This document shows, in pieces, positions 1,504 to 13,949 of a DNA stretch of 22,438 nucleotides. A program made the position numbers and the translations under genes. The number at the start of each line of letters is the position of its first letter. Within the stretch, counting starts at the first letter, position 1. The notes under the pieces are model-generated. The model made no database searches and had not been told where the DNA came from. It saw nothing but the letters and a program-made list of their open reading frames with translations. Source of the DNA: an uncultured Anaerosacchariphilus sp. (lineage in GTDB: Bacteria > Bacillota > Clostridia > Lachnospirales > Lachnospiraceae); the NCBI GenBank assembly GCA_934373375.1, contig CAKROP010000006.1, forward strand, positions 1-22,438, read 5' to 3'.

Positions 1504-3693
1504 TTACGTTTCTTCCTGCGTCTCCGTCACCGCAAAGCTCACCACTGCCGTAAACAGATCCGCGTCGGTCTCCACACGGAAGCTGCCGCCGCAGGCCTCG
1601 GTAAAGCTTTTGGCTATGGACAGCCCCAGTCCGCTGCCGCCGTCTGTCCGGCTCTTGTCGCCCCGGACGAAGCGCTCGGTGAAATCAATGCCGTCGCCAA
1701 GCTCGGTAGCAGATGTATTTTTCATAACCGCCGTTGCATTTCCATCTTTTTCCACAAGTGTCAGATACACACGGGAACCGGGCAGGGAATACTTGAGTGC
1801 ATTCTGCAAAAGATTCTGAAATACCCGGTACAGCCGCTGGCCGTCCGCCGTGATTTCCACCGGTTCCTCCGGGATAGACACCCGCATGGAGAGACTACTC
1901 TGCTCGATGGACTCGGCCATATCTGCCAGCGTCTGCCGCAGCAGCTTCGCGAAATCCAGCGCCTCCAGGTTTACTTTCAATTCGCCGGACGCCGCCTTGC
2001 TCACCTCAAACACGTCCTGCACCATGGCGCTCAGGCGCTCGGATTTTTCACCCAGGACCCGGATGTAGTCCTTCACATCCTCCGGCAGATTTTCCTCCTG
2101 CTTCAGGATGTCCACGTAGCTGACGATGGAAGTCAGGGGCGTCTTGATGTCGTGGGACACATTGGCCACCAGCTCCACCTTCATGCGCTCGCTTTTCGTG
2201 CGCTCCCGGATGGCCGCCTCCATGCCCTCCTGGATGCTGTTCAGGTCGTCCGCCGCCGCTTTCAGATCACTGTCCTCCGGCAGAGACAGCGCATTTTCCA
2301 TATCGCCGCCCCGGACGGCTCCGATCTGCTCCGTCAGCGCGCCCAGATCCTCGGCCAGTCTGCGCACCCGGTTCATGTAAAAGAAGCTCACAAAAGGAAT
2401 CAGGGAGCGCCGCTGCCATTTCACCAGCTTTTTCTGTACGGGCTGCTTCAGATCCCGGGTTCGGATGCTGCGCCGCAGACGGCCCAAAATACTCTTCTGC
2501 CGCCCTTGATTCCGATGCAGATCGGTGATTCCCAGATACAGCAGCCAGAAGATCAGGAACCAGTAGGGGAACATCCCGTCCAGATTGGAAGCCAGGTAAT
2601 CCCGCGCCGATGCCGCATAATCCTGGACTCCATAAGAAACGACCCATCCCAGGCTGAAACCGCTCCAGGCTAAAAATTCATCTATGAAGCGCAAAATCAA
2701 ATAAATCGGAAGGACGAAGAAGAACAGCAGCTTGATTTCCAACCAGATTTTCCCAGTCCATTCGGTGATGATTTCCTTACCTGCTCTTCGCGGCTTCCGC
2801 AGCGCCCACGCCAGAAGCAACAAAAGGAGAGTCGCCGCCAGACCGGCTTCGCTGCGTACCAGTCGCTGCCTGTCTGCCGCCAGACTCTCCTTCAGACGGT
2901 AGAGGACGCCGCCGTATCGTTTGGTTCCATTTGTACCGCTGACCACATACAGTTTGGGCTCTTTCGCTGCCGCCAGATAGACCGCGATTGCTTTCGCCTC
3001 GTCCCCTGCCGTGAAGTTCTGATAGCCCGGCACAGCCCAACGGCTGTTCTCCCGGTAGATGCCGTCGCCGTAGACGTCCACGGTCTGGCCGTTCTTTTCC
3101 ATGGCTACCTTGCCGTCGCCGTCTTTATTATAGATCAGCTGAAAATTATACTCCTCCGCCGGAATCCAGGCCGCGAAATCCATACCGATGCTGGCATTTT
3201 CCGCGTCCAGTCCGTCGATGTTCGTATAGGTCAGTTTTCCGTCTTTGAACACCGCGTAACGCAGGTTCTGGTCAGCTTTCAGTTCCTCCAGATAGGCGTT
3301 AAAATCCGCCGTGCTGTATCCGCCTGCTTCTGTGGCTGCCTCTTCATAGCTCATGGAACCTGCGTAACCAGACGTCCACCATTCGGATATGACCGTACCG
3401 CTATCCTCTGTGACTGTATCTGCCGCATAAGAATCATACCGATAGCCGGAATCGCTGTAGCTGTACTGATAGCCCATCCAGTCCTTTCCCTTGAGTCCGA
3501 TGCCGATCAGATCCTCCAGCCGATTCGACATGGTCGTGGCAAATTCCTGTGTTTTCTGATAGTCGGACTGCCGCAGATCCGTGTTCGAAATCAGCGTCAG
3601 CATGGAAATGAAGTTGTAAATCAGCAACGTCATTCCCAGAAAGAAGGCAAGCATGCCTATCCAGATTTTAGATTTTTTCCATTTTGTATCCAA
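1504..3693 (-). CDS. Membrane sensor histidine kinase
   Basis: The 729-residue protein is the sensor of a two-component system. Segment 11-32 is a first membrane helix. Residues about 35-280 form a Tyr- and Asp-rich outside sensor domain. Further hydrophobic segments lie at about 284-297, 316-340 and 374-392. A linker precedes the HisKA domain with NVSHDIKTPLTS (phospho-accepting H514). The ATPase domain shows the N box around N627-N631 (FQNLLQNALKYS) and the glycine-rich GSGLGLS at 686-692. It should autophosphorylate and pass phosphate to the regulator encoded just upstream. The proposed start is a TTG at 3693, inside the last codons of the regulator gene (26-base overlap, so coupled translation); the next Met, residue 14, would cut into the first membrane helix. 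The extracellular domain has no family that I recognise, so the signal is unknown. Confidence 0.92.
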   Translation of the reverse strand: MDTKWKKSKIWIGMLAFFLGMTLLIYNFISMLTLISNTDLRQSDYQKTQEFATTMSNRLEDLIGIGLKGKDWMGYQYSYSDSGYRYDSYAADTVTEDSGTVISEWWTSGYAGSMSYEEAATEAGGYSTADFNAYLEELKADQNLRYAVFKDGKLTYTNIDGLDAENASIGMDFAAWIPAEEYNFQLIYNKDGDGKVAMEKNGQTVDVYGDGIYRENSRWAVPGYQNFTAGDEAKAIAVYLAAAKEPKLYVVSGTNGTKRYGGVLYRLKESLAADRQRLVRSEAGLAATLLLLLLAWALRKPRRAGKEIITEWTGKIWLEIKLLFFFVLPIYLILRFIDEFLAWSGFSLGWVVSYGVQDYAASARDYLASNLDGMFPYWFLIFWLLYLGITDLHRNQGRQKSILGRLRRSIRTRDLKQPVQKKLVKWQRRSLIPFVSFFYMNRVRRLAEDLGALTEQIGAVRGGDMENALSLPEDSDLKAAADDLNSIQEGMEAAIRERTKSERMKVELVANVSHDIKTPLTSIVSYVDILKQEENLPEDVKDYIRVLGEKSERLSAMVQDVFEVSKAASGELKVNLEALDFAKLLRQTLADMAESIEQSSLSMRVSIPEEPVEITADGQRLYRVFQNLLQNALKYSLPGSRVYLTLVEKDGNATAVMKNTSATELGDGIDFTERFVRGDKSRTDGGSGLGLSIAKSFTEACGGSFRVETDADLFTAVVSFAVTETQEET

Positions 3694-4366
3694 TGCCCCA
3701 CACCACCTTTAAATATTCCGGTTCTTTCGGATTGAGCTCGATCTTTTCACGAATGCGGCGGATATGTACCATGACTGTATTTTCCGGCGCATAGGCTTCT
3801 TCCTCCCAGACCCGGCGGTAAATCTCCTCCGCCGGAAAGACGCGACCCCGATTTTTCATCAGAAGCTCCACGATCTTCGTCTCCGTGGCGGTCAGCCGCA
3901 CCGGCTCTCCGTCTGCGTACAGGGTTCGTTCGGATTGGCGATAGGTGAGTCGGCCATTTCGGATCTCGTCCCCGGACACGCCCGCGTGGATGTCGCCCAG
4001 CATGGTATAGCGCCGAAGTTGGCTTTTTACCCGGGCTGCCAGCTCCTGGGGATGAAAGGGCTTCGCCACGTAATCATCGGCGCCCATGGACAGGCCTATG
4101 ATTTTGTCGGTCTCCTCGCTTTTGGCGCTGAGGACGATGATTGGGATATTTTTCCGCTCCCGGATTTTCATGACGGCGGACAGTCCATCCAGGCGCGGCA
4201 TCATCACATCCATGATAATGAGCTGCACCGGCTTTTCCACTGCCAGCTCCAGGGCCTGCAGGCCGTCGTAGGCCTTCAGCACCTGATAGCCCTCTTTTTC
4301 CAGAAGCACTGCAATGGCTCTCACAATCTCCCGGTCGTCGTCTACTACCAGTACGCATTCGTTCAT
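3668..4366 (-). CDS. OmpR/PhoB-family response regulator
   Basis: The 232-residue protein has an N-terminal receiver domain with acidic residues D9-D11, phosphorylation site D53 (in IIMDVMMPRLD), and conserved S80 and K102. The C-terminal winged-helix DNA-binding domain spans about 130-230 and ends VVWGIGYKMEKI, as in OmpR/PhoB regulators. It is the partner of the overlapping histidine kinase. The ATG at 4366 has a clear AAAGGAGAG ribosome binding site. The gap upstream holds three direct repeats of GTAAGAAA (reading this strand) and a TATCCT -10, which suggests that the regulator controls its own operon. The target regulon is not evident, though the preceding small anchored protein and HAAS operon are candidates. 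Confidence 0.95.
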   Translation of the reverse strand: MNECVLVVDDDREIVRAIAVLLEKEGYQVLKAYDGLQALELAVEKPVQLIIMDVMMPRLDGLSAVMKIRERKNIPIIVLSAKSEETDKIIGLSMGADDYVAKPFHPQELAARVKSQLRRYTMLGDIHAGVSGDEIRNGRLTYRQSERTLYADGEPVRLTATETKIVELLMKNRGRVFPAEEIYRRVWEEEAYAPENTVMVHIRRIREKIELNPKEPEYLKVVWGIGYKMEKI

Positions 4367-4394
4367 ATTTGCTCTCTCCTTTTCCGGTGGTTTC

Positions 4395-4449
4395 AGGATA
4401 CCCTTTCTTTCTTACGGGACACCGGGGGATTTTCTTACAGCTTTCTTAC
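4395..4449 (-). promoter_or_regulatory. Response regulator promoter with three GTAAGAAA direct repeats
   Basis: Reading the minus strand, GTAAGAAA occurs at 4449-4442, 4438-4431 and 4415-4408. The repeat starts are 11 and 23 bases apart, about one and two helical turns. They end just upstream of TATCCT at 4400-4395, a plausible -10. The hexamer at the -35 position (GGTGTC) is poor, as expected at an activated promoter. Tandem direct repeats at 11-bp spacing are typical of OmpR/PhoB-family sites. The farthest repeat overlaps the stop codon of the upstream gene. The assignment to this regulator is inference. Confidence 0.5.
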
Positions 4450-5000
4450 AATCTTAAATCTTTTTCATTGAGCGGGTTATAAAAGATCTGTACCTGCTTG
4501 ATATGGGGCGCGCCCACCACAGAAATCAATTCGCCACGCTTCAGGCCCACCAGGACTTTGTCCTTGGCCTCCATCAGATTCTGAAAATTACTCTCGTCCG
4601 TATCCTGCCAGTAGCAGCGAAGCTCCAGGGCCGGGTTACGGGTCTGCCGCCAGGTATCGGCGTCGTCATCGTAATAGTCATCCTCCTGGACGGTCTCTTC
4701 GATCCGCGGCTCCACCATGTCTTTATTGTAGGTAATGCGGAACAGCACGGTATTTTCCGGAATGCTCTCGTCGGCCTCCACATCGGGAGCCGTATCCCAG
4801 TAGCCGTCAATATTCCAGACGCCCTGCTCCGGGTCGATCTCTTTGCTGATGTCTCTGGTAACGATATCTGTCTTGCCGACCACTTCCGCGCCGCCGTAGG
4901 CCAGGCCTGAAAATTCGCCGAAGGCTACGCCTGCGCCGATGCCGGACAGCAGGATGCCGCCGCAAAAGATGCCGATAGTTATTTTATGCAATCTGGTCAT
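4446..5000 (-). CDS. Small membrane-anchored or secreted protein of unknown function
   Basis: The product is 184 residues from the preferred ATG at 5000, which has AGAGGAGG six bases upstream; another ATG at 5006 sits too close to that site. Residues about 6-28 form one hydrophobic segment, a signal anchor or uncleaved signal peptide. The rest is polar, with an acidic Asp/Tyr run (EDDYYDDDAD) near residues 106-115 and no motif that I recognise. It is the third gene of an overlapping padR-HAAS operon, a slot often filled by a DUF4097 adhesin-like protein. This protein is too short and lacks the repeated beta-rich pattern, so I do not give it that name. The context suggests an envelope-stress role sensed or acted on outside the membrane. 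Confidence 0.7.
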   Translation of the reverse strand: MTRLHKITIGIFCGGILLSGIGAGVAFGEFSGLAYGGAEVVGKTDIVTRDISKEIDPEQGVWNIDGYWDTAPDVEADESIPENTVLFRITYNKDMVEPRIEETVQEDDYYDDDADTWRQTRNPALELRCYWQDTDESNFQNLMEAKDKVLVGLKRGELISVVGAPHIKQVQIFYNPLNEKDLRL

Positions 5001-5964
5001 GTTCATCCTCCTCTGCCTCTACGGCCTCGTCTGTGAAATCGTCTTCTTCCGGCTCGTCGTCTGTATCGACCTCATTTTCCAGGACGGCGGTTTTCTCTTC
5101 GGTCTTTTTCCGACGAATCAGGCCCCAGGCCGCGCAGGTCAGCGCGCCGCCGCAGAGCAGACCGCCAAGGCTCATCAAGGTCACGCCGATAAGCGGGTAG
5201 CCCTGGAAGCAGAGAATCAGGAGCGCGCCAAAGCAGAAAATGGCGGCGATGGTTCCCAGTGCCAGGCAGATTGCCCCGCAGAACCAGAAGAGATTCCAGC
5301 AGAGGCGTACGCCCCAGCGGAGCAGGTCCCAGCAAATGTGCCAGAGCCAGATAATCAGTTTTCTTAAAACGCGGGCGGCGCTGCCAATCAGGCTGCCGCA
5401 GCCTTTCAGGATGTCGCGGCAGAAGCCGATGAGTTTTCCAAGTATGCCCTGTTCGGAGCTGGAATCTGCTTTTTGAAAAACTGCCGGACCATATCCGACT
5501 TTGCTTTTTTCCGAATCTCCGCCGTCTGCAGCTGTCCACTGTCTGGCCGTGCTTCCGGCTCCCCCCGGCTGCTCCACAGGATCTCCCGCAGGCTTCTTAT
5601 GGATCGGCTTCCCAATCCAGGCGCATACCTCCTGTATCCACTGTCCCAGCTTCTTTCCCGCCCTTTTCAGGAAACTGCCTGCGCTTCGGATCCCCTGCTC
5701 CGCAGACTGCGCCGCGCTCTCAAAGTCCATCCTTACCCGACGGCTGCTGTCGCCATATTCCGGATTCACATGGTAGGCCTCCAGGATCTCCGCCGCCAGC
5801 TCCTTCACCGGCCCGAAATCGCCGATGGCCTCCTCCTCGGACATGCCGTTCTGTATCTTCATGTCGATATGCTGCGCATATTCATCCAGAATATCCTGCT
5901 GCTCCCGTTCCTCCAGCACCTTCAGATGTCCCGCAAGCTCTGTCAGAAATGCTTCTTTACTCAT
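4984..5964 (-). CDS. HAAS-domain (DUF1700-like) membrane protein
   Basis: The 326-residue protein starts with an alpha-helical domain (about 1-70, with EYAQHIDMKIQNGMSEEEAIGDFG) typical of HAAS/DUF1700 proteins, which sit next to PadR regulators in Firmicutes. A long polar linker (about 120-170) follows. Two strong membrane helices lie at about 224-252 and 257-284, and a very acidic tail covers 287-326. It overlaps padR by 8 bases (ATGAGTAA) and the following gene by 17 bases, so the three genes are one translationally coupled unit. By family analogy the HAAS domain may work with PadR at the membrane in envelope stress control; the exact role is unknown. Confidence 0.8.
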   Translation of the reverse strand: MSKEAFLTELAGHLKVLEEREQQDILDEYAQHIDMKIQNGMSEEEAIGDFGPVKELAAEILEAYHVNPEYGDSSRRVRMDFESAAQSAEQGIRSAGSFLKRAGKKLGQWIQEVCAWIGKPIHKKPAGDPVEQPGGAGSTARQWTAADGGDSEKSKVGYGPAVFQKADSSSEQGILGKLIGFCRDILKGCGSLIGSAARVLRKLIIWLWHICWDLLRWGVRLCWNLFWFCGAICLALGTIAAIFCFGALLILCFQGYPLIGVTLMSLGGLLCGGALTCAAWGLIRRKKTEEKTAVLENEVDTDDEPEEDDFTDEAVEAEEDEHDQIA

Positions 5965-6280
5965 GTTGTTCTCCCTCCTTCAGGTACCTATCCACCTGCT
6001 GCTGAAATTCCATCCACTCTTTGGCCAGAGAATCCCGATAGAGAATCCCTGCTGCCGTCAGATGATAATATTTTCGTGGGGGTCCTTCTGTGGACTCCCG
6101 AAGGTATGTCTCAAAATAATGTTCATTGGTCAGACGCTTCAGCAGCGGGTAAATGGTTCCCTCATTCACGTTAATGACCCGGGAAACCTCCTCCACCAGC
6201 TCATACCCGTACCGATCCTTCCGGCGCACTGCCTCCAGCACGATCAGCTCCAGCACGCCCTTTTTAAATTGTGGGTTCAT
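5957..6280 (-). CDS. PadR-family transcriptional regulator
   Basis: The 107-residue protein has the PadR winged-helix core: KGVLELIVLEAVRRKDRYGYELVEEV, then NVNEGTIYPLLKRLTNEHY, and the wing with PPRKYYHLTAAG. The start is set at the ATG at 6280, which has GGAGGGATGAA just before it; an upstream in-frame extension would add 21 residues unlike the family. A short C-terminal helix supports dimer formation. It heads the operon with the HAAS protein and the small anchored protein and probably represses its own promoter, as PadR proteins of this s-type usually do. The inducing signal is unknown. Confidence 0.92.
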   Translation of the reverse strand: MNPQFKKGVLELIVLEAVRRKDRYGYELVEEVSRVINVNEGTIYPLLKRLTNEHYFETYLRESTEGPPRKYYHLTAAGILYRDSLAKEWMEFQQQVDRYLKEGEQHE

Positions 6281-6314
6281 TTCATCCCTCCCGCACGTTC
6301 CTGTGTCTGATATT

Positions 6315-6343
6315 AGGTTACACCTGCTACTATGTAATGTCAA
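6315..6343 (-). promoter_or_regulatory. Promoter of the padR-HAAS operon
   Basis: On the minus strand a perfect -35 TTGACA (6343-6338) is followed after 17 bases by TAACCT (6320-6315), a weak -10. Transcription would begin near 6308, some 30 bases ahead of the padR ATG. The promoter diverges from the tRNA promoter about 60 bases away. Confidence 0.5.
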
Positions 6344-6401
6344 GTACTAAAGTTTTAAGAATAGTTTAAGATGGATTTTTCTACTTTTTTCTATTTTCTT
6401 C

Positions 6402-6431
6402 TTGACAACAGCCATCATTTCATGTTATAAA
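6402..6431 (+). promoter_or_regulatory. Promoter of the tRNA gene
   Basis: TTGACA at 6402-6407 and TATAAA at 6426-6431 are separated by 18 bases. They lie 20 bases ahead of the mature tRNA 5' end, in AT-rich sequence. This is a near-consensus housekeeping promoter well placed for a short 5' leader. Confidence 0.75.
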
Positions 6432-6450
6432 TATTAAGCACGTTTGATAC

Positions 6451-6521
6451 AGGGGATTGGTCAAATGGCATGACAGGGGTCTCCAAAACCCTTAGTGGGA
6501 GTTCGATTCTCTCATCCCCTG
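6451..6521 (+). tRNA. tRNA-Trp (anticodon CCA), short variant form
   Basis: A complete cloverleaf of 71 bases can be folded by eye. The acceptor stem AGGGGAT pairs fully with ATCCCCT. The D stem is GTCA/TGAC with a 7-base loop holding GG, the anticodon stem GGGGT/ACCCT with loop CTCCAAA, a 4-base variable region TAGT, and the T stem GGGAG/CTCTC with loop TTCGATT. The anticodon CCA reads UGG. The A1-U72 pair and discriminator G73 agree with bacterial tryptophan tRNAs. The 3' CCA is not encoded. It is shorter than the usual tRNA-Trp because of its reduced D loop and variable region, so it may be a second, divergent copy. A promoter and a terminator flank it, so it forms its own transcription unit. 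Confidence 0.9.
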
Positions 6522-6526
6522 CTAAA

Positions 6527-6567
6527 AGAAGCCTGAAAGCGGAATGCTTTCGGGCTTTTCTTTTTTT
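6527..6567 (+). terminator. Rho-independent terminator after the tRNA
   Basis: The stem AGCCTGAAAGC (6530-6540) pairs with GCTTTCGGGCT (6546-6556) through a GGAAT loop, with one G-T wobble. It is followed by TTTCTTTTTTT. It starts about ten bases after the tRNA end. Confidence 0.92.
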
Positions 6568-7214
6568 GCCGGACAGAAGTCTCTTCCACTCACCTATGAT
6601 CCGTTTTTCAAATACATTTTTCACCCGGATCGCCACGCTGACCGGTTGGAGAATTTCATTTCCTCTATTCTGGGTATGCAGGTAAAGATTCGAAGCATTC
6701 TGCCGGTGGAAGACAGTTTGATCGACGGAGAGACCTATCTTATCATGGATTTACTTGTGGAATTGGAAGATGGTTCGCTGGCCAATATTGAAATTCAGAA
6801 AAACGGCTATGCTTTTACGGAAGAACGTCTCTCCTGCTATGCGGCTGATCTGCTCATGCGCCAGTACACCCGTGTGCGTGGCCTGAAAGGACAGGAATTT
6901 TCTGATCAGTCTTGACGTATTCCGGAAAATCCCGTATTCTGAAGACAGAAAAGGAAATCTTTCAGGAGATCGCTCTGCTGCGCCGCAAACCCGAGGAGGT
7001 CATCAGTATGTGGTCGGAAGCGTTACGGATTTTGGATGAAAATTCTTTGAAATACTATGTGGAACAGTTAAAAGAAGAAGTAGATGCCGCGAAGCTGGAA
7101 CTCAAGACGTATAAAGAAGAGCGTGCTAATGAAATTGCTGCTTTGACCAGCGAAAAGGATGCGGAAATTGCCGCACTCAAAGCGGAACTTGAAGCTTTAA
7201 AGGCTTCCAAATAA
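6544..7214 (+). pseudogene. Rpn-family (PD-(D/E)XK) transposase/nuclease, decayed remnant
   Basis: Two reading frames cover the two ends of one protein. The first (open to a TGA at 6913) has SLPLTYDPFFKYIFHP, LIMDLLVELEDG and NIEIQ, matching the N-terminal nuclease region of Rpn/PDDEXK_2 putative transposases; the catalytic Asp and ExQ are still present. The second frame (about 6912-7214) has KPEEVISMWSEALRILDENS and a C-terminal Ala/Glu/Lys coiled coil, matching the family's tail. The middle part of the usual protein of about 300 residues is missing and the frame changes at the junction, so an internal deletion has inactivated it. The first frame also runs back into the tRNA terminator with no good ribosome binding site, so the 5' end is damaged too. 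A short product from the second frame (100 residues) cannot be ruled out. Confidence 0.8.
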
Positions 7215-7234
7215 ATACTCACATAACGATACTG

Positions 7235-7279
7235 AAAGGGCTGGAATCTCTGATTTTTCTCAAAGATTCCAGCCCTTTT
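7235..7279. terminator. Bidirectional terminator between Rpn remnant and DUF4230 gene
   Basis: AAAGGGCTGGAATCT (7235-7249) and AGATTCCAGCCCTTT (7264-7278) are perfect 15-bp complements around a 14-base loop. A- and T-rich ends give a T-run in both directions. It sits between two convergent transcription units, 18 bases beyond the stop of the DUF4230 gene, and should end the jet operon transcript. Confidence 0.9.
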
Positions 7280-7297
7280 CCATGCATTTTCCGGCAT

Positions 7298-7912
7298 CTA
7301 CTCCGCGAACTTCACCACCAGCTCCCGCTCCCCGATAGCGCCCGCAAAGAGCCCTGAGAGGAGCTGCCTGGTCTGAGTCTTCGCTTCGGCTTTCAGGCTG
7401 TCGAAGTCGGCTTTTTCTTCCACGTCTTTCTGGGCGGCGGTCATGCCGTCCAGGACGTCGGTTTTCTTGCCCCAGTTCAGGAGGGCGGCTTTCTCATCGT
7501 AGAACTGGATGGAATCGGAATCCACCACGGTGTCCAGGATCCGGACTGCCGGAAGGGTCAGCTGCACCTCCTTGTCGGTGATCTTGATATCCGTCTGGGA
7601 CAGGTCCACGCCGGCCCGTACCTCGGCCCGGTAGGTCATGGTGAAGGACTTCTGGGTCAGCAGCGGGATGCTGCCGTCAGAGTAGTAGACCAGCCCATTG
7701 TAGGTCAGCTTGGCCGTGGTCAGCTCGCTGACCATCTCCAGCTTGTCGCTGATGAAGCTGCTGGTGATCTGCGTCTCGTTTTTCGGCGCAAAGCGGTTCG
7801 CCACGAACACGACGGCCGCCGCTATCACCACAATCTCGATAAAATGCAGAATTGTCTTAAAGCCCACCCGTCTCCTTGGCCGTTCTTCCCGTTCTCTCTT
7901 CTCTCTCCTCAT
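7298..7912 (-). CDS. DUF4230-family membrane-anchored protein
   Basis: The 204-residue protein begins with a highly basic cytoplasmic stretch (Arg/Lys/Glu, residues 1-20). One membrane helix follows (about 20-40, ILHFIEIVVIAAAVVFVANRF), then an outside domain of about 160 residues. That domain has the pattern of DUF4230: KLEMVSELTTAKLTYNG, YRAEVRAGVDLSQTDIKIT and VQLTLPAVRILDTVVD. The length fits the family, whose function is not established. It lies 92 bases downstream of jetC on the same strand and ends at a strong terminator, with no clear promoter of its own, so it may be the last gene of the jet operon. It could instead be an unrelated housekeeping envelope gene that is merely adjacent. 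A small CCGGA/TCCGG dyad at 7929-7941 lies just ahead of its start. Confidence 0.8.
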   Translation of the reverse strand: MRREKREREERPRRRVGFKTILHFIEIVVIAAAVVFVANRFAPKNETQITSSFISDKLEMVSELTTAKLTYNGLVYYSDGSIPLLTQKSFTMTYRAEVRAGVDLSQTDIKITDKEVQLTLPAVRILDTVVDSDSIQFYDEKAALLNWGKKTDVLDGMTAAQKDVEEKADFDSLKAEAKTQTRQLLSGLFAGAIGERELVVKFAE

Positions 7913-8004
7913 ACCTTCCCCTTTCCATCCGGATATTCCGGCATCTGTATTCCAATATTTTCCATTACTAGGCAGGGGCGATTTCCCTGTCGAAGCCTGA
8001 CCTC

Positions 8005-11000
8005 TTACTCCTCCGTTACCAGCTCGCCAAAGTCCTTCTTCTCAAACTCCTGAATGGAAATATTTTTCTTATTCGGGTTCGCGTACACAAAGGTCTTGTC
8101 CACATTTTCGATGTAGTTCTGAATCTTGTCGTTGGTGGCGCTGATGATGGCCTGGAAGCCAAGGCTTCTTATCAGGTCGATGCAGCTGGCCACCTTCTCC
8201 GCATCCATCTTGGAAAAGGCCTCGTCCAGCACCACCAGACGGATGGTAGGCCGTCTGGACGCCCGTGCGGACAGGTTGATGCGGTAGGCCTGGGCGAAGC
8301 TTGCCAGAAGCGCAATGTACAGCGGGTTCTGGCCCTCGCCGCCGGAATTCTTCTTAATCATTTTGCTGAGGCCGATGACCAGGCGCTGCTCGTCGCCCTC
8401 CACGATCTGCTCCATCTCAAAAGACAGGTAGGTCCGGTAATCCGCGTATTTTTCCATATTTTTCCTTGCTTCCTCCAGCTCCGCTGCTGTGGCGTTTTCC
8501 GGTGGAATAAAGAGAGCCAGAAGCTCGCTGATCATGTGGCCGTATTTATTTTCATGGCTCATGGAAAACAGGTTCATCTGATGATCCACGGACACGGACA
8601 GGGTAGACGGATCAATATCCAGATCCTCATCCATGAACATATCGTAAAACTCGCCGTCCCGGCCCTTGCTCCGACCGATACGGAACTGGTAACGGTCCTT
8701 GCCGAAATCCAGATTCCGGATAATCCGGTTCAGCTCATCCCTGCGCACATAGGCCTCCCGGATGGCGCTTCGAATCTTGTAAATAAAGTCCTCTTTAAAA
8801 TGCTCCACGGCAGACTTGGCCTGGGCGTTGGCTTTCTTCTTATAATCCTCCAGCTCGCCGCACTGAAGCTTCGCCAAAAGCTTCTCGTAATCCCCATTGT
8901 CCCCGGCAGACGCGGAGAAATCCCGCTGGGGATGATTTTTCAGGTAGTCGGTCCGGACCTCCACCAGGACGCTCTTCTGCTTCTCGCAGTCCGCGATGCT
9001 TCGCTCCATGGCCGCAGCCGTCTCCTCCAGAAGCCGCGCATAACGGGGATTCTTATACTCCTGTATATAGTTCTCGAAGGCTTCCTCGTCTTTTTCGGAA
9101 CCACGGAGCGCGCGTTCCGCCTCCAGCAGCTCCCCGTTTCGGCCGGTCAGACCCGCATTGCCGCTCTCCACGGAACGCTCCTTGTCCCAGATCTGATGCT
9201 TCACCCGTTCCAGCTCGACCTTCGCGGCAGCCTGCTTCTCCAGGATCTCCGTCCGCTTCGTCTTCAGCTCCTCCACGATACCGGAATTCAACTCCTCCAT
9301 CCGGTTCTTCAGATCTGTAAGCTCCTTCTCCTTCTGCTGTTTTTCCTTCACATCATCCAGCAGGCTCCGGTATTCCTCCGTGGCGTCGGACAGATATTCA
9401 TGGGCCAGAATTTCGGATGCCAGTTCTTCTGTCTTCTTAAACTGCCCGATTTTGTCATTGAGCTTCTCAAGCTGAGCGGAAAGCTCCTTCTGCCGCTGCT
9501 GCTTACTCTTTTCGCCGATGTAGGCGAATTTTGTGTAATTGTCGGGATTCAGGCGGCGCAGCTGATAGTTCTGATACAGGCGGCAGTCCGCGGTCACGCC
9601 GATGCGGCATCCGCGAAGCTCCTCAGTATTCTCGCATTTCTGCACATTTCCCAGAAGGAAATCCACGTAGGCCTTCACATAAGCCTCGCCCGCCTTCACC
9701 TCCGAAGCCAGCGCCTCCGGCTTCACATGCTGCTCCTCCTTCATCAGACGCTCCGTATCCACCACGGATACCCGCCAGTATTTCTTCGGATCCAGGGTCT
9801 CGTAGATGGCCATGGCTTCCTTCACGTACTTCGGCTCCACGATCAGGGCCAGCTTGTTCCAGGCCAGGAAGCCCTCGATAGCGTTGCGCCATTTCTCATC
9901 ACGAATCTCCAGAAGATCCGCCAGAATCCGCACCTGCACCCGCCTGCCAAGGCTCTCGTACAGCCGACGCTCGATTTCCGCCCGGGCAAAAGTCAGCTCC
10001 TTCGGGTAGGACGTCTTGCCGGAACGCAGCTCCGCAAGCTCGCTCTCGATAAGCTTCGCTTCCTTCTTTAATGTCCGCATCTCCGACGCTGCCTCACGCT
10101 GCTCGCCGTCCGCCTCCTCGTGTACCTCGGCCAGGGACTTTTTCAGCCGCGTGATCTCCTCCGCCGTAATTCTGCCGTTCCGGAACTTCTCAATGTCGTT
10201 CAGTGCCTGATTGGAGACACTTTCCACATCCTCCCAGGCCTCCAGCTTCACGGCCAGAGCCTTCCATTTCTCCTCGCTGCGGCCCAGACGTGCATAGGCT
10301 TCCTCCAGATTGCGCAGCTTCTCTTCCAGCAGCGCGTAGCCCGTATCGGTCAGCTGTATGTTGATCTCGTGGTACTGCTGCTCCAGATCGGCTGCCAGCG
10401 CCTCATTTTCCTGCTCTTTTTCCTTCAGAAGCGCCAGATCTGACTGCCAGAGTCCCAGCTGCTCCTGGGTTTTGCGAATTTCCTCCCGAAGCTGCAGCAC
10501 CTTAAGCTTCTCCTGCCGGTAATGAAGCCCTGCCAGCTCCTCCTGGGCGCCGGAAAAGGCCTGATACTGCTCCCCGATCCGGTTCAACTCCTCAATCTCC
10601 CGCATGGCTGCCTCGATTTTACGGCACATGCGGCCATAGAGCTGCACACTCTCCTGCATATCTTCAATGTGGATGTCCTGCTCCATGCAGATATATTCTT
10701 TTACAAAATCTTCCAGTCTTATGTTCATACGGAAGGGAATGGCCCGCTTGAACAGCCGCGGAAATTTCTCCATATCCAGGCCGCCCAGATAGACGTCGTA
10801 GAGATTCCGGCGGAAACGCTCGTTGTTGGAGGTGTAAAAATATTCCTCTCGGGGGAAATGCTTTTGCAGATATTCCCGCACCTCACCGGTGGTCATGGTC
10901 CGCTCCCGGGTCCGGTAGTCTCCCGGAATCATGCCGCCCTTATGCCAGAAAAACAGACGGCCAATTTCGTTCGTAGAAGTGTCCACGTCGAATACCACGC

Positions 11001-11361
11001 CGATACACTCCTTCTCCTTTGTGGCGCTCTGCTCCATTTCCAGTACAATGGTGGATGAAAAGTTCTTATTTCTCCGATAGGAAATCTGGTTATTTTCCCC
11101 GATGTTGATCATACCCCGCAGGTACTCAATCAGGCTTCGGTCGGAATCGTCCGCCGCCGCCTTATTGAAGAAGCCGCGGCCATCGGTGTTGGCATACAGA
11201 ACGATCTGCATGGCGTCGATCACCGTGGACTTACCGCTGCCGGAATGACCGGTGAAAAAATTGATGCTCTCGTTGAGGCTCAAGACCTTCCGGTCAATAT
11301 AATGCCAGTTATTGAGCCCTATCTTGGTAAATATTTTATAAGCCTGTGTCTGCTGATCCAT
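8005..11361 (-). CDS. jetC: Wadjet/MksB-type SMC ATPase (JetC-like)
   Basis: The 1118-residue protein is an SMC-like ATPase. Walker A GHSGSGKST lies at 38-46 and the head continues to about 235. A coiled coil runs at about 240-450, a globular hinge-like part at about 470-615, and a second long coiled coil follows. The C-terminal head half carries the ABC signature SGGEGQ (1006-1011) and Walker B LVVLDE (1042-1047). By family knowledge it forms, with the kleisin and KITE subunits encoded upstream, a DNA loop-extruding condensin of the MukBEF/MksBEF/Wadjet class. The ATG at 11361 is preferred because AGAGGAG stands at good spacing ahead; a TTG nine codons earlier has no such support. The gene overlaps jetB by 26 bases. 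All ATPase motifs look intact. What is missing is a nuclease gene (JetD/MksG) nearby. Confidence 0.9.
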   Translation of the reverse strand: MDQQTQAYKIFTKIGLNNWHYIDRKVLSLNESINFFTGHSGSGKSTVIDAMQIVLYANTDGRGFFNKAAADDSDRSLIEYLRGMINIGENNQISYRRNKNFSSTIVLEMEQSATKEKECIGVVFDVDTSTNEIGRLFFWHKGGMIPGDYRTRERTMTTGEVREYLQKHFPREEYFYTSNNERFRRNLYDVYLGGLDMEKFPRLFKRAIPFRMNIRLEDFVKEYICMEQDIHIEDMQESVQLYGRMCRKIEAAMREIEELNRIGEQYQAFSGAQEELAGLHYRQEKLKVLQLREEIRKTQEQLGLWQSDLALLKEKEQENEALAADLEQQYHEINIQLTDTGYALLEEKLRNLEEAYARLGRSEEKWKALAVKLEAWEDVESVSNQALNDIEKFRNGRITAEEITRLKKSLAEVHEEADGEQREAASEMRTLKKEAKLIESELAELRSGKTSYPKELTFARAEIERRLYESLGRRVQVRILADLLEIRDEKWRNAIEGFLAWNKLALIVEPKYVKEAMAIYETLDPKKYWRVSVVDTERLMKEEQHVKPEALASEVKAGEAYVKAYVDFLLGNVQKCENTEELRGCRIGVTADCRLYQNYQLRRLNPDNYTKFAYIGEKSKQQRQKELSAQLEKLNDKIGQFKKTEELASEILAHEYLSDATEEYRSLLDDVKEKQQKEKELTDLKNRMEELNSGIVEELKTKRTEILEKQAAAKVELERVKHQIWDKERSVESGNAGLTGRNGELLEAERALRGSEKDEEAFENYIQEYKNPRYARLLEETAAAMERSIADCEKQKSVLVEVRTDYLKNHPQRDFSASAGDNGDYEKLLAKLQCGELEDYKKKANAQAKSAVEHFKEDFIYKIRSAIREAYVRRDELNRIIRNLDFGKDRYQFRIGRSKGRDGEFYDMFMDEDLDIDPSTLSVSVDHQMNLFSMSHENKYGHMISELLALFIPPENATAAELEEARKNMEKYADYRTYLSFEMEQIVEGDEQRLVIGLSKMIKKNSGGEGQNPLYIALLASFAQAYRINLSARASRRPTIRLVVLDEAFSKMDAEKVASCIDLIRSLGFQAIISATNDKIQNYIENVDKTFVYANPNKKNISIQEFEKKDFGELVTEE

Positions 11362-11965
11362 CTTCCGACTCCTCTTCCGTTTCCTCAAATGTCTTTACCA
11401 GCTCTCCCGCATCCTCACGAAGAAGCGCCAGATTGACGCTCGGGTAAATCAGGATTCTGCAGGCCTCGCCCATTTCCTCCAGACCGTCCAGCAATTCCAC
11501 CATCTGGTATTTTTTCAGCGCCGCAAAGGCCCGCTTCTGCTCGGTAATCGAAGGCAGCCCCCGCACCAGACGGAATTCGCCAAGCTTTCCGTTCAGCTCG
11601 CCCACGGTCGTGAAGGCCTGGGTGCTGCTGGATACCGCCGCCATCTTTTCATCGTAAATCAGCTTCAGAAGCAAAAGATACAGGGTCGTCAGCTTCGTCA
11701 GACGCTCGCCCGCGCCCTCAGCGCCCTGGATGTAAATGATTCCCAGCTCGTAATTCTGCCGGATGGTAATACCGGCCACGGCAAAGTATTCCGTCAGAAA
11801 TTCCAGATGGCCGGCGCAGAATTCATATTCCCGGTCCGAGGCCATCCGGCCGCTTTTTTTATCATATTTCCGATCCAGCAGGAAGGTCTGGGATAAGAGC
11901 TTCCGAACCACCGCCTGCATGGTTTCCTGTTCTATGGTGTTCCATTCCTGGTATTGTTCTAACAT
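11336..11965 (-). CDS. jetB: JetB/MksE-like KITE subunit of the condensin
   Basis: This 209-residue protein sits between the kleisin and SMC genes, the standard place of the JetB/MksE (KITE) subunit. Its predicted helix-rich N-terminus, central ELGIIYIQG strand and winged-helix-like middle fit the DUF4194/DUF6063 kind of protein, though I cannot tell which by eye. KITE proteins bind the kleisin as dimers and regulate opening of the SMC ring. The C-terminus (about 190-209) is an acidic, probably disordered tail. The ribosome binding site overlaps the jetA stop (TAGGA, then ATG ten bases after the stop codon), so translation is probably coupled. The call depends mainly on gene context; the sequence alone is weakly diagnostic. 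Confidence 0.75.
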   Translation of the reverse strand: MLEQYQEWNTIEQETMQAVVRKLLSQTFLLDRKYDKKSGRMASDREYEFCAGHLEFLTEYFAVAGITIRQNYELGIIYIQGAEGAGERLTKLTTLYLLLLKLIYDEKMAAVSSSTQAFTTVGELNGKLGEFRLVRGLPSITEQKRAFAALKKYQMVELLDGLEEMGEACRILIYPSVNLALLREDAGELVKTFEETEEESEDGSADTGL

Positions 11966-11974
11966 ATGGTTTTC

Positions 11975-13333
11975 CTAATCCTCTTTTTCTGTATCGGTTT
12001 TTTCCTGTCTCGGGAAAAAAGCCATTTTGGGATATCGATACGTCCCGTTTTCCAGCTGTTCCTCCTGCACGACTACCCGATAAGGGCTGCTGCGCCGCAC
12101 AGAAAGGTCGTAGGCCAGAATCAGCTTCTCAAAATCCTCGTCATTCTGAAGCGTAATCCGGTCGGTCTCCAGTACACCATCCTCCATATGGGAGCCAATG
12201 AAATCCTCGATCTCCTTCTTCGTAAAGCGATGGCGAATCTGATTCATCCGCAGAATATCCTCCCGGGACATTTCCTTTTGCTTCTCCTCCCCGGTCAGTT
12301 CATCCTCAAAGCGTCTGCGCCGCCGCTGCCGGTACAGGGGCTGCTCGTTCAGCACGGAAAATCCGGTGAGCTGCATACGCTCTGCCACCTGCGCCAGCTT
12401 TTCCGCCTGCTCCTCCGGCTCCCGGTCGGCGCCCAGATGGTTCAGAAGCTGCACCAGCAGGCCGTGACGCTCAGTCTCATCGCTTAAAAGGTAATTCAGA
12501 CGGCTGACTGTGGCCCGGATGTATTTGCTGTGCTCCCGGTCCATATTGGCGATGCGATGCTCGATATCGTCGAAGCCGCGCTCGATCTGATCCACCAGAT
12601 CCAGCATTTCCGCCTCCTGCTCCGGGGCGATCTCCGGCTCCTCCCTCATACTTCGCAGGCATCGCTTGATATCCATCTTGTAAATGTAGAAATTGTCGCT
12701 GGTCTTCAGGATGTGGTATTTCTGCTGGACAGCGGTCTCCACGAAGCCGTCCAGATGCTCCTTCAACAGATTTTTATAATTCTTCTGCTCCAGCAGACGC
12801 TCGAAAAATTTGTCCATATTGTGCAGCATATCCTGCAGGGCCTTGTTCAGCTTCTTCGTGTTGACCAGGGCCGTTTTCAGCATGGACAGATTTTTACGCC
12901 GGTCATTTTTAAAGGAAAAGAGCGTGGCGTACACATTCTGGATGTAAACCTGCGTCTCCTCCATCTGCTCATTGACCAGACGGTCGAAGGCGTCAATCAT
13001 AATCGCCGCGTAATCGGGGATTACGATATTGACCGTCATCGAAGCGTAATCCTCCACCCGGCGCAGCCATTTGTGGCGCAGGAGCCAGCCAAGGATACGG
13101 CCCGGAAGGGCGCTGTGCTCCTCCTCGTCGGTCTCGTCCTCCTCCCGCTCAAAGCTCCAGGCGGATTCCCGGCACATGTCCGTCAGAATCTGCACACAGG
13201 CCTCCCTGCTCAGGAAATAATTGTTATACTGATATTCGTCATTGATGGCCAGCAGGGCCTCAATGTACACGTCCCGGTTACCCGAGCGGAACAGACTCCA
13301 GAATTCTGCCGGTATCTCATATAAAAATTGCAC
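11975..13333 (-). CDS. jetA: JetA-like kleisin (Wadjet/MksF-type)
   Basis: The 452-residue protein matches the JetA family found in clostridial Wadjet-type operons. The N-terminal winged-helix part (about 1-110, FLYEIPAEFWSLFRSGNRDVY and later WLLRHKWLRRVEDYASMTV) is followed by a long helical middle with conserved RRKNLSMLKTALVNTKKLNKALQDML. The C-terminal part would contact the ATPase. Kleisins bridge the two SMC heads. The start is a GTG at 13333 with AAAGGAG six bases upstream. It lies 12 bases after the tetR stop and 9 bases before jetB, so tetR, jetA, jetB and jetC are almost certainly co-transcribed. It was assigned by its sequence pattern and the SMC neighbour; a distant MksF condensin kleisin is the alternative. 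Confidence 0.82.
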   Translation of the reverse strand: MQFLYEIPAEFWSLFRSGNRDVYIEALLAINDEYQYNNYFLSREACVQILTDMCRESAWSFEREEDETDEEEHSALPGRILGWLLRHKWLRRVEDYASMTVNIVIPDYAAIMIDAFDRLVNEQMEETQVYIQNVYATLFSFKNDRRKNLSMLKTALVNTKKLNKALQDMLHNMDKFFERLLEQKNYKNLLKEHLDGFVETAVQQKYHILKTSDNFYIYKMDIKRCLRSMREEPEIAPEQEAEMLDLVDQIERGFDDIEHRIANMDREHSKYIRATVSRLNYLLSDETERHGLLVQLLNHLGADREPEEQAEKLAQVAERMQLTGFSVLNEQPLYRQRRRRRFEDELTGEEKQKEMSREDILRMNQIRHRFTKKEIEDFIGSHMEDGVLETDRITLQNDEDFEKLILAYDLSVRRSSPYRVVVQEEQLENGTYRYPKMAFFPRQEKTDTEKED

Positions 13334-13345
13334 GTTGTTCTCCTT

Positions 13346-13870
13346 TTATAGCTGAGCGGTGATCTGGTCGGCAATCATTTCCGCAGGCTCCCGCTTTCCG
13401 TTTTTCTCCCACTGAATAAACACATTCAGCAATGCCCCACCATAGAAATAGAGTTCGTAGACCGGGATTTTGTAATGGGGCATGATGCGCTTCATCATGT
13501 AATCGTTCATGGCGTCCTGGATGATGTAGAGAAGCTTCGCGTCCACCAGCTTCAGGATGAATACCGAGTACCGGTCGAAATATTTGAGTGCGTGGATAAT
13601 GCTGCTCCGTTCATGGAAGCGTCCCACCTGCTCCTCCCTGCATTCGCGGATATAGCCCGCCACGATCTCGTGAAAGAAATCCGTCAGCGCGTCCTCCTTC
13701 GTCTCATAATAATGATAAAAGGTCACCCGGGACACACCGGCCCGCTTTACGATGTCCGACACCTTGATTTTCTCATATTCCTTCTTGTCCATCAGGGCGA
13801 AAACCGCCTCGCCGATGCACATGCGGGTGAAACGGGTTCTTTTATTGTGATTTTGGGAAAATAAATTCAA
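13346..13870 (-). CDS. TetR/AcrR-family regulator heading the jet operon
   Basis: The 174-residue protein has the TetR N-terminal domain: FTRMCIGEAVFALMDKKEYEKIKVSDIVKRAGVSRVTFYHYYETKEDAL, with the helix-turn-helix at about residues 37-56. A helical ligand/dimer domain follows. The start appears to be a TTG at 13870, preceded by AAGGAG eight bases away; the first internal Met (residue 17) would remove part of the DNA-binding domain. A weak start codon fits low expression of a repressor. It is the first gene of the operon, 12 bases before jetA, and two inverted repeats lie in its promoter, so autorepression is likely. The ligand is unknown. Confidence 0.9.
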   Translation of the reverse strand: MNLFSQNHNKRTRFTRMCIGEAVFALMDKKEYEKIKVSDIVKRAGVSRVTFYHYYETKEDALTDFFHEIVAGYIRECREEQVGRFHERSSIIHALKYFDRYSVFILKLVDAKLLYIIQDAMNDYMMKRIMPHYKIPVYELYFYGGALLNVFIQWEKNGKREPAEMIADQITAQL

Positions 13871-13903: not shown

Positions 13904-13949
13904 AATAACACCTGTACGGCAGAGTATTTCTGCACATACAGATGTTATT
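13904..13949. promoter_or_regulatory. Inverted repeat over the tetR-jet transcription start
   Basis: AATAACACCTGT (13904-13915) and ACAGATGTTATT (13938-13949) are complementary at 11 of 12 positions with 22 bases between. The right arm overlaps the -10 of the tetR promoter and the left arm lies in the leader. The centres are 34 bp apart, about three helical turns, which would suit two bound dimers on one DNA face or an RNA hairpin in the leader. Confidence 0.5.

Follow-up and report, generated by a model that had tools for sequence, protein, structure and literature searches.

A type I Wadjet locus without jetD in a Lachnospiraceae genome: probable repeated loss of the nuclease gene from a retained JetABC core

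We analysed a 22,438-nucleotide stretch of DNA (the window; positions 1 to 22,438 of contig CAKROP010000006.1, from an uncultured Anaerosacchariphilus sp. of the Lachnospiraceae) that carries jetA, jetB and jetC of a type I Wadjet system and no jetD. In the current view of Wadjet, a motor triggers a nuclease. On balance we favor the reading that this locus is a type I JetABC core that lost jetD and was kept as a nuclease-free SMC (structural maintenance of chromosomes) motor, useful without cutting. A preliminary description of the same DNA had left three explanations side by side: a nuclease encoded elsewhere, a branch that acts without cutting, and an unrelated partner in the role of JetD. 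Action without cutting appears to fit best, since JetABC is intact and under selection at loci without jetD, and 40 of 50 genomes lacking a linked jetD have no JetD match at all. The genes of the run are as follows:

13346..13870, minus strand: gene for a regulator of the TetR type, opening the run with a TTG start codon (PF00440 TetR_N, 8.3e-9)
11975..13333, minus strand: jetA, kleisin subunit (PF18982, 3.8e-122; PADLOC JetA1 PDLC00451, 687 bits)
11336..11965, minus strand: jetB, KITE subunit (PF13835 DUF4194, 2.8e-17; PADLOC JetB1 PDLC00484, 293 bits)
8005..11388, minus strand: jetC, SMC ATPase (PADLOC JetC1 PDLC00505, 1563 bits, residues 13-1126)

By PADLOC and Pfam, the three jet genes are type I and stand in the same order as in JetABCD, encoding a JetA kleisin, a JetB KITE protein and a JetC SMC ATPase, the last of which also matches the Pfam families SbcC_Walker_B and AAA_29. 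The nucleotide-binding motifs of JetC (Walker A GHSGSGKST, signature SGGE, Walker B LVVLDEAF) are intact, and the earlier statement that they argue against decay was borne out, as was the tight packing of the four genes: 12 bases separate tetR from jetA, 9 separate jetA from jetB, and jetB overlaps jetC by 26 bases if jetC begins at ATG 11361, the alternative to TTG 11388 in the longest open reading frame (ORF). The TOPRIM nuclease that completes a type I operon was found on neither side of the locus, as had also been claimed; a profile of JetD proteins from relatives detected none in the window, and tblastn with 34 JetD proteins gave a best match of only E 0.14. No model for MukB, MukE or MukF appeared among NCBIfam matches to E 0.1, from a library that may contain none.

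To place the locus among its relatives, a species-genome collection was scanned by JetA alignment, which gave 163 confirmed relatives, and the best 80 were kept. The presence of jetD was scored with a JetD profile built from these relatives, and a locus was called 'without' only when at least 1.5 kb could be read past jetC. By their family titles, 64 of the loci belong to Lachnospiraceae, 5 to Clostridiaceae, 3 to Oscillospiraceae and 1 to Paenibacillaceae (Cohnella), and 7 carry no family. jetD follows jetC in 17 of the 80 loci and is missing from 45, while a contig end cuts off 14 and jetC does not lie near jetA in 4. The preliminary description had named, as grounds for a simple local loss, that homologous loci regularly carry jetD; in its simple form this does not agree with 17 loci with the gene against 45 without.

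A second sample, less dependent on the window, consisted of 397 genomes sampled evenly across the family to which G002 belongs; locus L002 lies in G002 (loci and genomes are numbered L and G). A JetA match was present in 110 of the 397. The window's subfamily was defined by proxy as JetA genes scoring at least 400 bits to PF18982. Among its 43 JetA genes, 17 had a JetD no more than 13 kb away on their contig and 26 did not; the 26 resolved into 21 without jetD, 4 on cut contigs (G390, G323, G111, G251) and one, in G010, counted as with jetD because a cognate JetD is present on another contig. Outside the subfamily, 57 of 72 JetA genes were linked to JetD, or 58 with and 14 without once G317, where JetD lies just before JetA, is counted as paired; those 14, of 15 unpaired genes, were taken as without jetD with contig ends checked in part, and two of them (G206, G053) are near one. 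The ratio of genes without to genes with jetD was therefore 21/18 in the subfamily and 14/58 among other JetA genes (Fisher p 5e-4, a guide only, because the genes are related). Split JetA matches were merged by hand and their bits added (G012, G391, G053, G183, G348), and fragments or faint JetA matches were left out (G396, G311:C85, G235, G181, G308, G062:C8); the JetD search did not extend to G181, G235 and G308, whose JetA matches are faint.

Systems that retain jetD sit in the same tree as the window's set, and jetD was probably ancestral in the subfamily and lost repeatedly. Distances between JetD proteins correlate with those between the corresponding JetC proteins over the 17 linked pairs (r 0.70, reached in none of 2000 permutations). 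Clades common to both trees include (L023, L050), (L061, L053), (L015, L017) and (L004, (L001, G438)); deeper forks are often weak. This broad agreement suggests that jetD travelled with jetC. At least 13 changes of jetD state are needed on the JetC tree by parsimony; if only losses are allowed the count is 26, a figure inflated by unresolved forks. Shared neighbours are seen on both sides of the divide, with L015 and L017 reading jetC, jetD, c19 and L029, L030 and L048 reading jetC, c19. In the window's own clade, jetD of L169 is followed by a gene that resembles, by eye, the gene coming straight after jetC in L161, and the position directly after jetC in L002 is occupied by an ABC-class ATPase (PF09818). 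Pseudogene remnants of jetD were sought at the loci without it by tblastn with the 34 JetD proteins, and nothing better than E 0.012 was obtained. Gene c19 itself resembles a phosphoesterase by eye.

If jetD had been lost recently and JetABC were on its way out, the remaining genes would be a relic, and the scattering of the losses, some of them between close sisters (L061 with jetD, L064 without), is in keeping with this. We regard such a relic as improbable, given what the genes look like where jetD is missing. The ratio of nonsynonymous to synonymous change (dN/dS), from Nei-Gojobori counts made with our own script in which saturated cases yield no value, was 0.03-0.17 for jetA, jetB and jetC across nine pairs in which neither locus has jetD. 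Four of twenty pairs (L042-L048, L008-L011, L007-L009 and window-L002; dN/dS 0.05-0.21) fall outside these nine, the state of jetD being cut off or short, and L074-L077 falls outside them likewise, as it includes such a locus. JetC exceeds 1000 residues and has Walker A and SGGE in all 17 loci with jetD and all 45 without. The Walker B pattern was matched in 17/17 and 44/45, respectively, and the exception, VVFDEAF in L069, is likewise intact, which brings the second count to 45/45. Loci without jetD also form clades of 4 to 6 members that are 0.31-0.39 changes per site deep.

A further point against a relic is that jetA and jetC have come to lie on different contigs in four genomes and are both still open reading frames there, with no cognate JetD in the genome:

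jetA at L020, L021, L025, L032; jetBC at L171, L176-L178: separated-gene loci of genomes G015, G016, G019 and G024

jetB adjoins jetC in the three of these genomes that were read (G015, G019 and G024; G016 was not), and L031 and L034, where other DNA stands between jetA and jetB, look like intermediates. A set of genes that is selected, intact and in places separated is hard to explain as a relic.

A nuclease encoded elsewhere in the window's genome could act in trans with this JetABC, and this was evaluated on 62 genomes with PDLC00524, the PADLOC model that both scanned JetD proteins of the subfamily match best. The model scored 384-567 bits in all 13 genomes with a known type I JetD of this subfamily, namely 9 with jetD directly after jetC plus G001, G438, G010 and G033. 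In the 50 genomes without a linked jetD (a set that includes G033 and leaves out G438 and G010), it found one cognate JetD, in G033, five matches of 87-134 bits, four of at most 26 bits, and nothing in 40. Adding G438 and G010, each with a JetD on another contig, puts the cognate protein elsewhere in 3 of 52 genomes. A cognate JetD at a distance therefore exists and is rare, so that the suggestion of a nuclease encoded elsewhere holds for a few relatives, and neither figure covers the window's own genome. The case among the 50 is G033. Its JetD scores 413 bits, no jet gene was found within about 8 kb before or 5 kb after it, and it groups with the JetC of that genome in one broad clade; the JetA of G033 is on another contig. 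A two-gene unit between jetC and jetD in G001, and type I restriction genes after jetC in G438, also count in favor of this explanation. Set against them are the low counts and two near relatives with long contigs, G484 (4.49 of 4.5 Mb) and G486 (3.13 of 3.4 Mb), in which no cognate JetD was found; we consider a nuclease in trans unlikely for the window.

The 3.11 Mb contig of G335 likewise held no cognate JetD, and of the records titled complete, L055 gave no match to PDLC00524 and L003 only 25.7 bits. In the five genomes with a JetD of 87-134 bits (G006, G025, G047, G049, G290), a second JetA lies 4-5 kb from that JetD. Faint matches to PF09983 were considered as cognate JetD and rejected: the two tested with PADLOC (L098, L099) fit type III JetD best, and the genomes with such matches that were run with PDLC00524 (all except G079, G085, G245 and G304) gave at most 26 bits or nothing.

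At L168, positions 7956-9122 hold the solitary cognate JetD gene of G033; the 14 kb read there showed no jet gene besides it. In L166, a two-gene unit at 1510-2429, made up of a DUF3990 protein and its neighbour (the PADLOC candidates PDC-M10A and PDC-M10B), lies between jetC and jetD, and in L163 type I restriction-modification genes (2200-7259) stand directly after jetC, the jetD of this relative being on another contig. The junction of jetC and jetD may serve as an uptake site for other defence genes.

Several observations weigh against a core maintained for action without cutting. Loss followed by regain would give the scattered presence of jetD equally well, and G438 and G010 do hold a cognate JetD on another contig. 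Many of the genomes are draft assemblies. Only two pairs of loci with jetD (dN/dS 0.03-0.11) were available for comparison with the nine pairs without it. For the window itself, dN/dS against L002 was 0.12 for jetC, yielded no value for jetA, and at 0.21 for jetB was the highest of the set, as a relic would lead one to expect; its synonymous sites are near saturation, with proportions of nonsynonymous difference (pN) of 0.19-0.28 and of synonymous difference (pS) of 0.63-0.94 against four relatives. A motif of the LLERKYD type at the N-terminus of JetB is kept in rows with and without jetD, which would suit a nuclease acting in trans. It resembles, and may be equivalent to, the IFDR motif at the JetB N-terminus that contacts JetD according to the part of a review available to us (PMC10586767); a search of solved structures with the JetB profile found no JetB. 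Columns conserved where jetD is present and relaxed where it is absent numbered 5 in JetA, 2 in JetB and 7 in JetC (permutation fractions 0.03, 0.13 and 0.06). With the motif kept and few columns relaxed, neither a change of role nor the loss of a JetD site is clearly indicated. The core without jetD thus looks able to take JetD, which fits either a motor function common to both states or a JetD that returns.

The third explanation, that another protein took the role of JetD (the DUF4230 protein in the window and other partners elsewhere), draws on the position of the DUF4230 gene, which lies about 90 bases past jetC and is encoded on the same strand. It did not find support, and we consider it very unlikely. 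Twenty proteins encoded after jetC were scanned, from 19 loci in all (L002 and 18 of the 45 that lack jetD), and the neighbours at the remaining 27 of the 45 were clustered and listed, outside the protein-family scan. No single substitute emerged: the 20 proteins belong to unrelated families of housekeeping type, only dehydroquinase occurring twice, and 3 have no family. DUF4230 was found in 14 of 55 genomes and near JetA in none of those 14; a DUF4230 gene and a subfamily JetA share a contig only in G037 and G486, where they are more than 470 kb apart. tblastn with DUF4230 gave no match in any of the 80 loci, and the protein showed no convincing solved relative. The TetR protein was likewise rejected as a conserved partner, with faint tblastn matches (35-37 bits) in only three of the 80 loci (L023, L050, L057) and none directly before jetA.

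For the nuclease-free motor that we favor, the following course of action is proposed. The complex would assemble as it does in JetABCD, and JetABC would load on DNA and extrude loops by ATP hydrolysis, by extension from what the available portions of PMC10586767 and PMC7617805 say of JetABCD and MukBEF. When the complex stalls on a small circle, there would be no JetD to activate and hence no cleavage. The target may be the chromosome or resident circular DNA, and the outcome folding, segregation, silencing or exclusion. The possibility that JetABC is the only condensin was considered and rejected, because ScpB was present in 50 of 50 genomes tested; JetABC is probably not the sole condensin and might work beside SMC-ScpAB as a second one, resembling MksBEF. 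The set in the window is probably under the control of the TetR-type protein, which may act at the inverted repeat that precedes tetR. More tentatively, and with less confidence than we place in the reading of the locus itself, we propose that in Lachnospiraceae and near relatives this subfamily repeatedly shed its nuclease because JetABC has a selected function of its own, such that cutting by JetD would be an optional extra and the core job the handling of DNA without cutting.

Compared with type I Wadjet as known, the window's locus differs in lacking jetD, and in most of the related genomes tested without a linked jetD no cognate JetD was found anywhere. The MksBEF set of Pseudomonas aeruginosa belongs to a different sequence family and a different host. 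According to the available part of its report (PMC7485682), that complex is a second condensin beside SMC with a role in the chromosome, much as proposed for the window's complex; MksG goes unmentioned in the main text. MukBEF and several other members of the Wadjet group lack MksG/JetD, as described in the accessible part of PMC7617805, which also describes a survey that modelled the neighbours of operons without MksG, and they share with the window's set a kleisin, KITE and SMC core, in the window without that nuclease at the locus. Complexes of this kind are thus already known; what differs here is that jetD was probably lost repeatedly within one type I subfamily, in which other members retain it. 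MukBEF replaces SMC-ScpAB (PMC10586767, in the part available), whereas ScpB of that condensin is still present in the genomes tested here. The literature searched, mostly open papers without their supplements, contained no account of this recurrent loss of jetD, and the table of the MksG survey (Data S1) may list such operons.

Close relatives with and without the nuclease, both intact, make the motor's own role directly testable, and they bear on the conversion between condensins such as MukBEF and systems of plasmid defence, in either direction. Recurrent loss with the motor kept hints that the motor has an unexplored function by itself. It also follows that plasmid defence called from jetABC alone can be wrong.

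On the minus strand, the order of genes is the fatty-acid synthesis genes, tetR, jetA, jetB, jetC and the DUF4230 gene; the upstream fatty-acid genes of the preliminary description were confirmed by family scan. The features that flank the jet genes are:

13907..13946, no strand assigned: imperfect inverted repeat whose two AACAYCTGTAYG arms are exact, lying between tetR and the fatty-acid genes
7298..7912, minus strand: DUF4230 protein, neighbour gene (PF14014, 2.8e-26)
about 7236..7283, no strand assigned: terminator-like inverted repeat closing the run, read from the sequence

The arms of the upstream repeat lie one on each strand, and every other site in the window differs from them by at least 2 mismatches. 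The repeat was absent from the output of an exact-repeat search (exact seed of 9 bases), and a search for long operator patterns gave no match; it is a candidate TetR operator, or a candidate terminator stem of the preceding genes. On the downstream side, the preliminary description had placed DUF4230, a terminator and a transposase remnant. The DUF4230 gene was confirmed, and the inverted repeat at 7236-7283 is visible, although the terminator scan, which allows loops of 3-8 bases only, did not list it. Beyond it, positions 6451-7214 contain a tRNA gene, a transposase-like ORF of the PD-(D/E)XK type (PF12784, 6544-6915) and, in another frame, an ORF at 6912-7214 with no Pfam match. The two ORFs, which correspond to the transposase remnant, are probably one broken gene. 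At five Eisenbergiella loci (L004, L007, L008, L011 and L058), a gene of about 900-970 codons directly before jetA resembles, by eye, a relative of elongation factor G.

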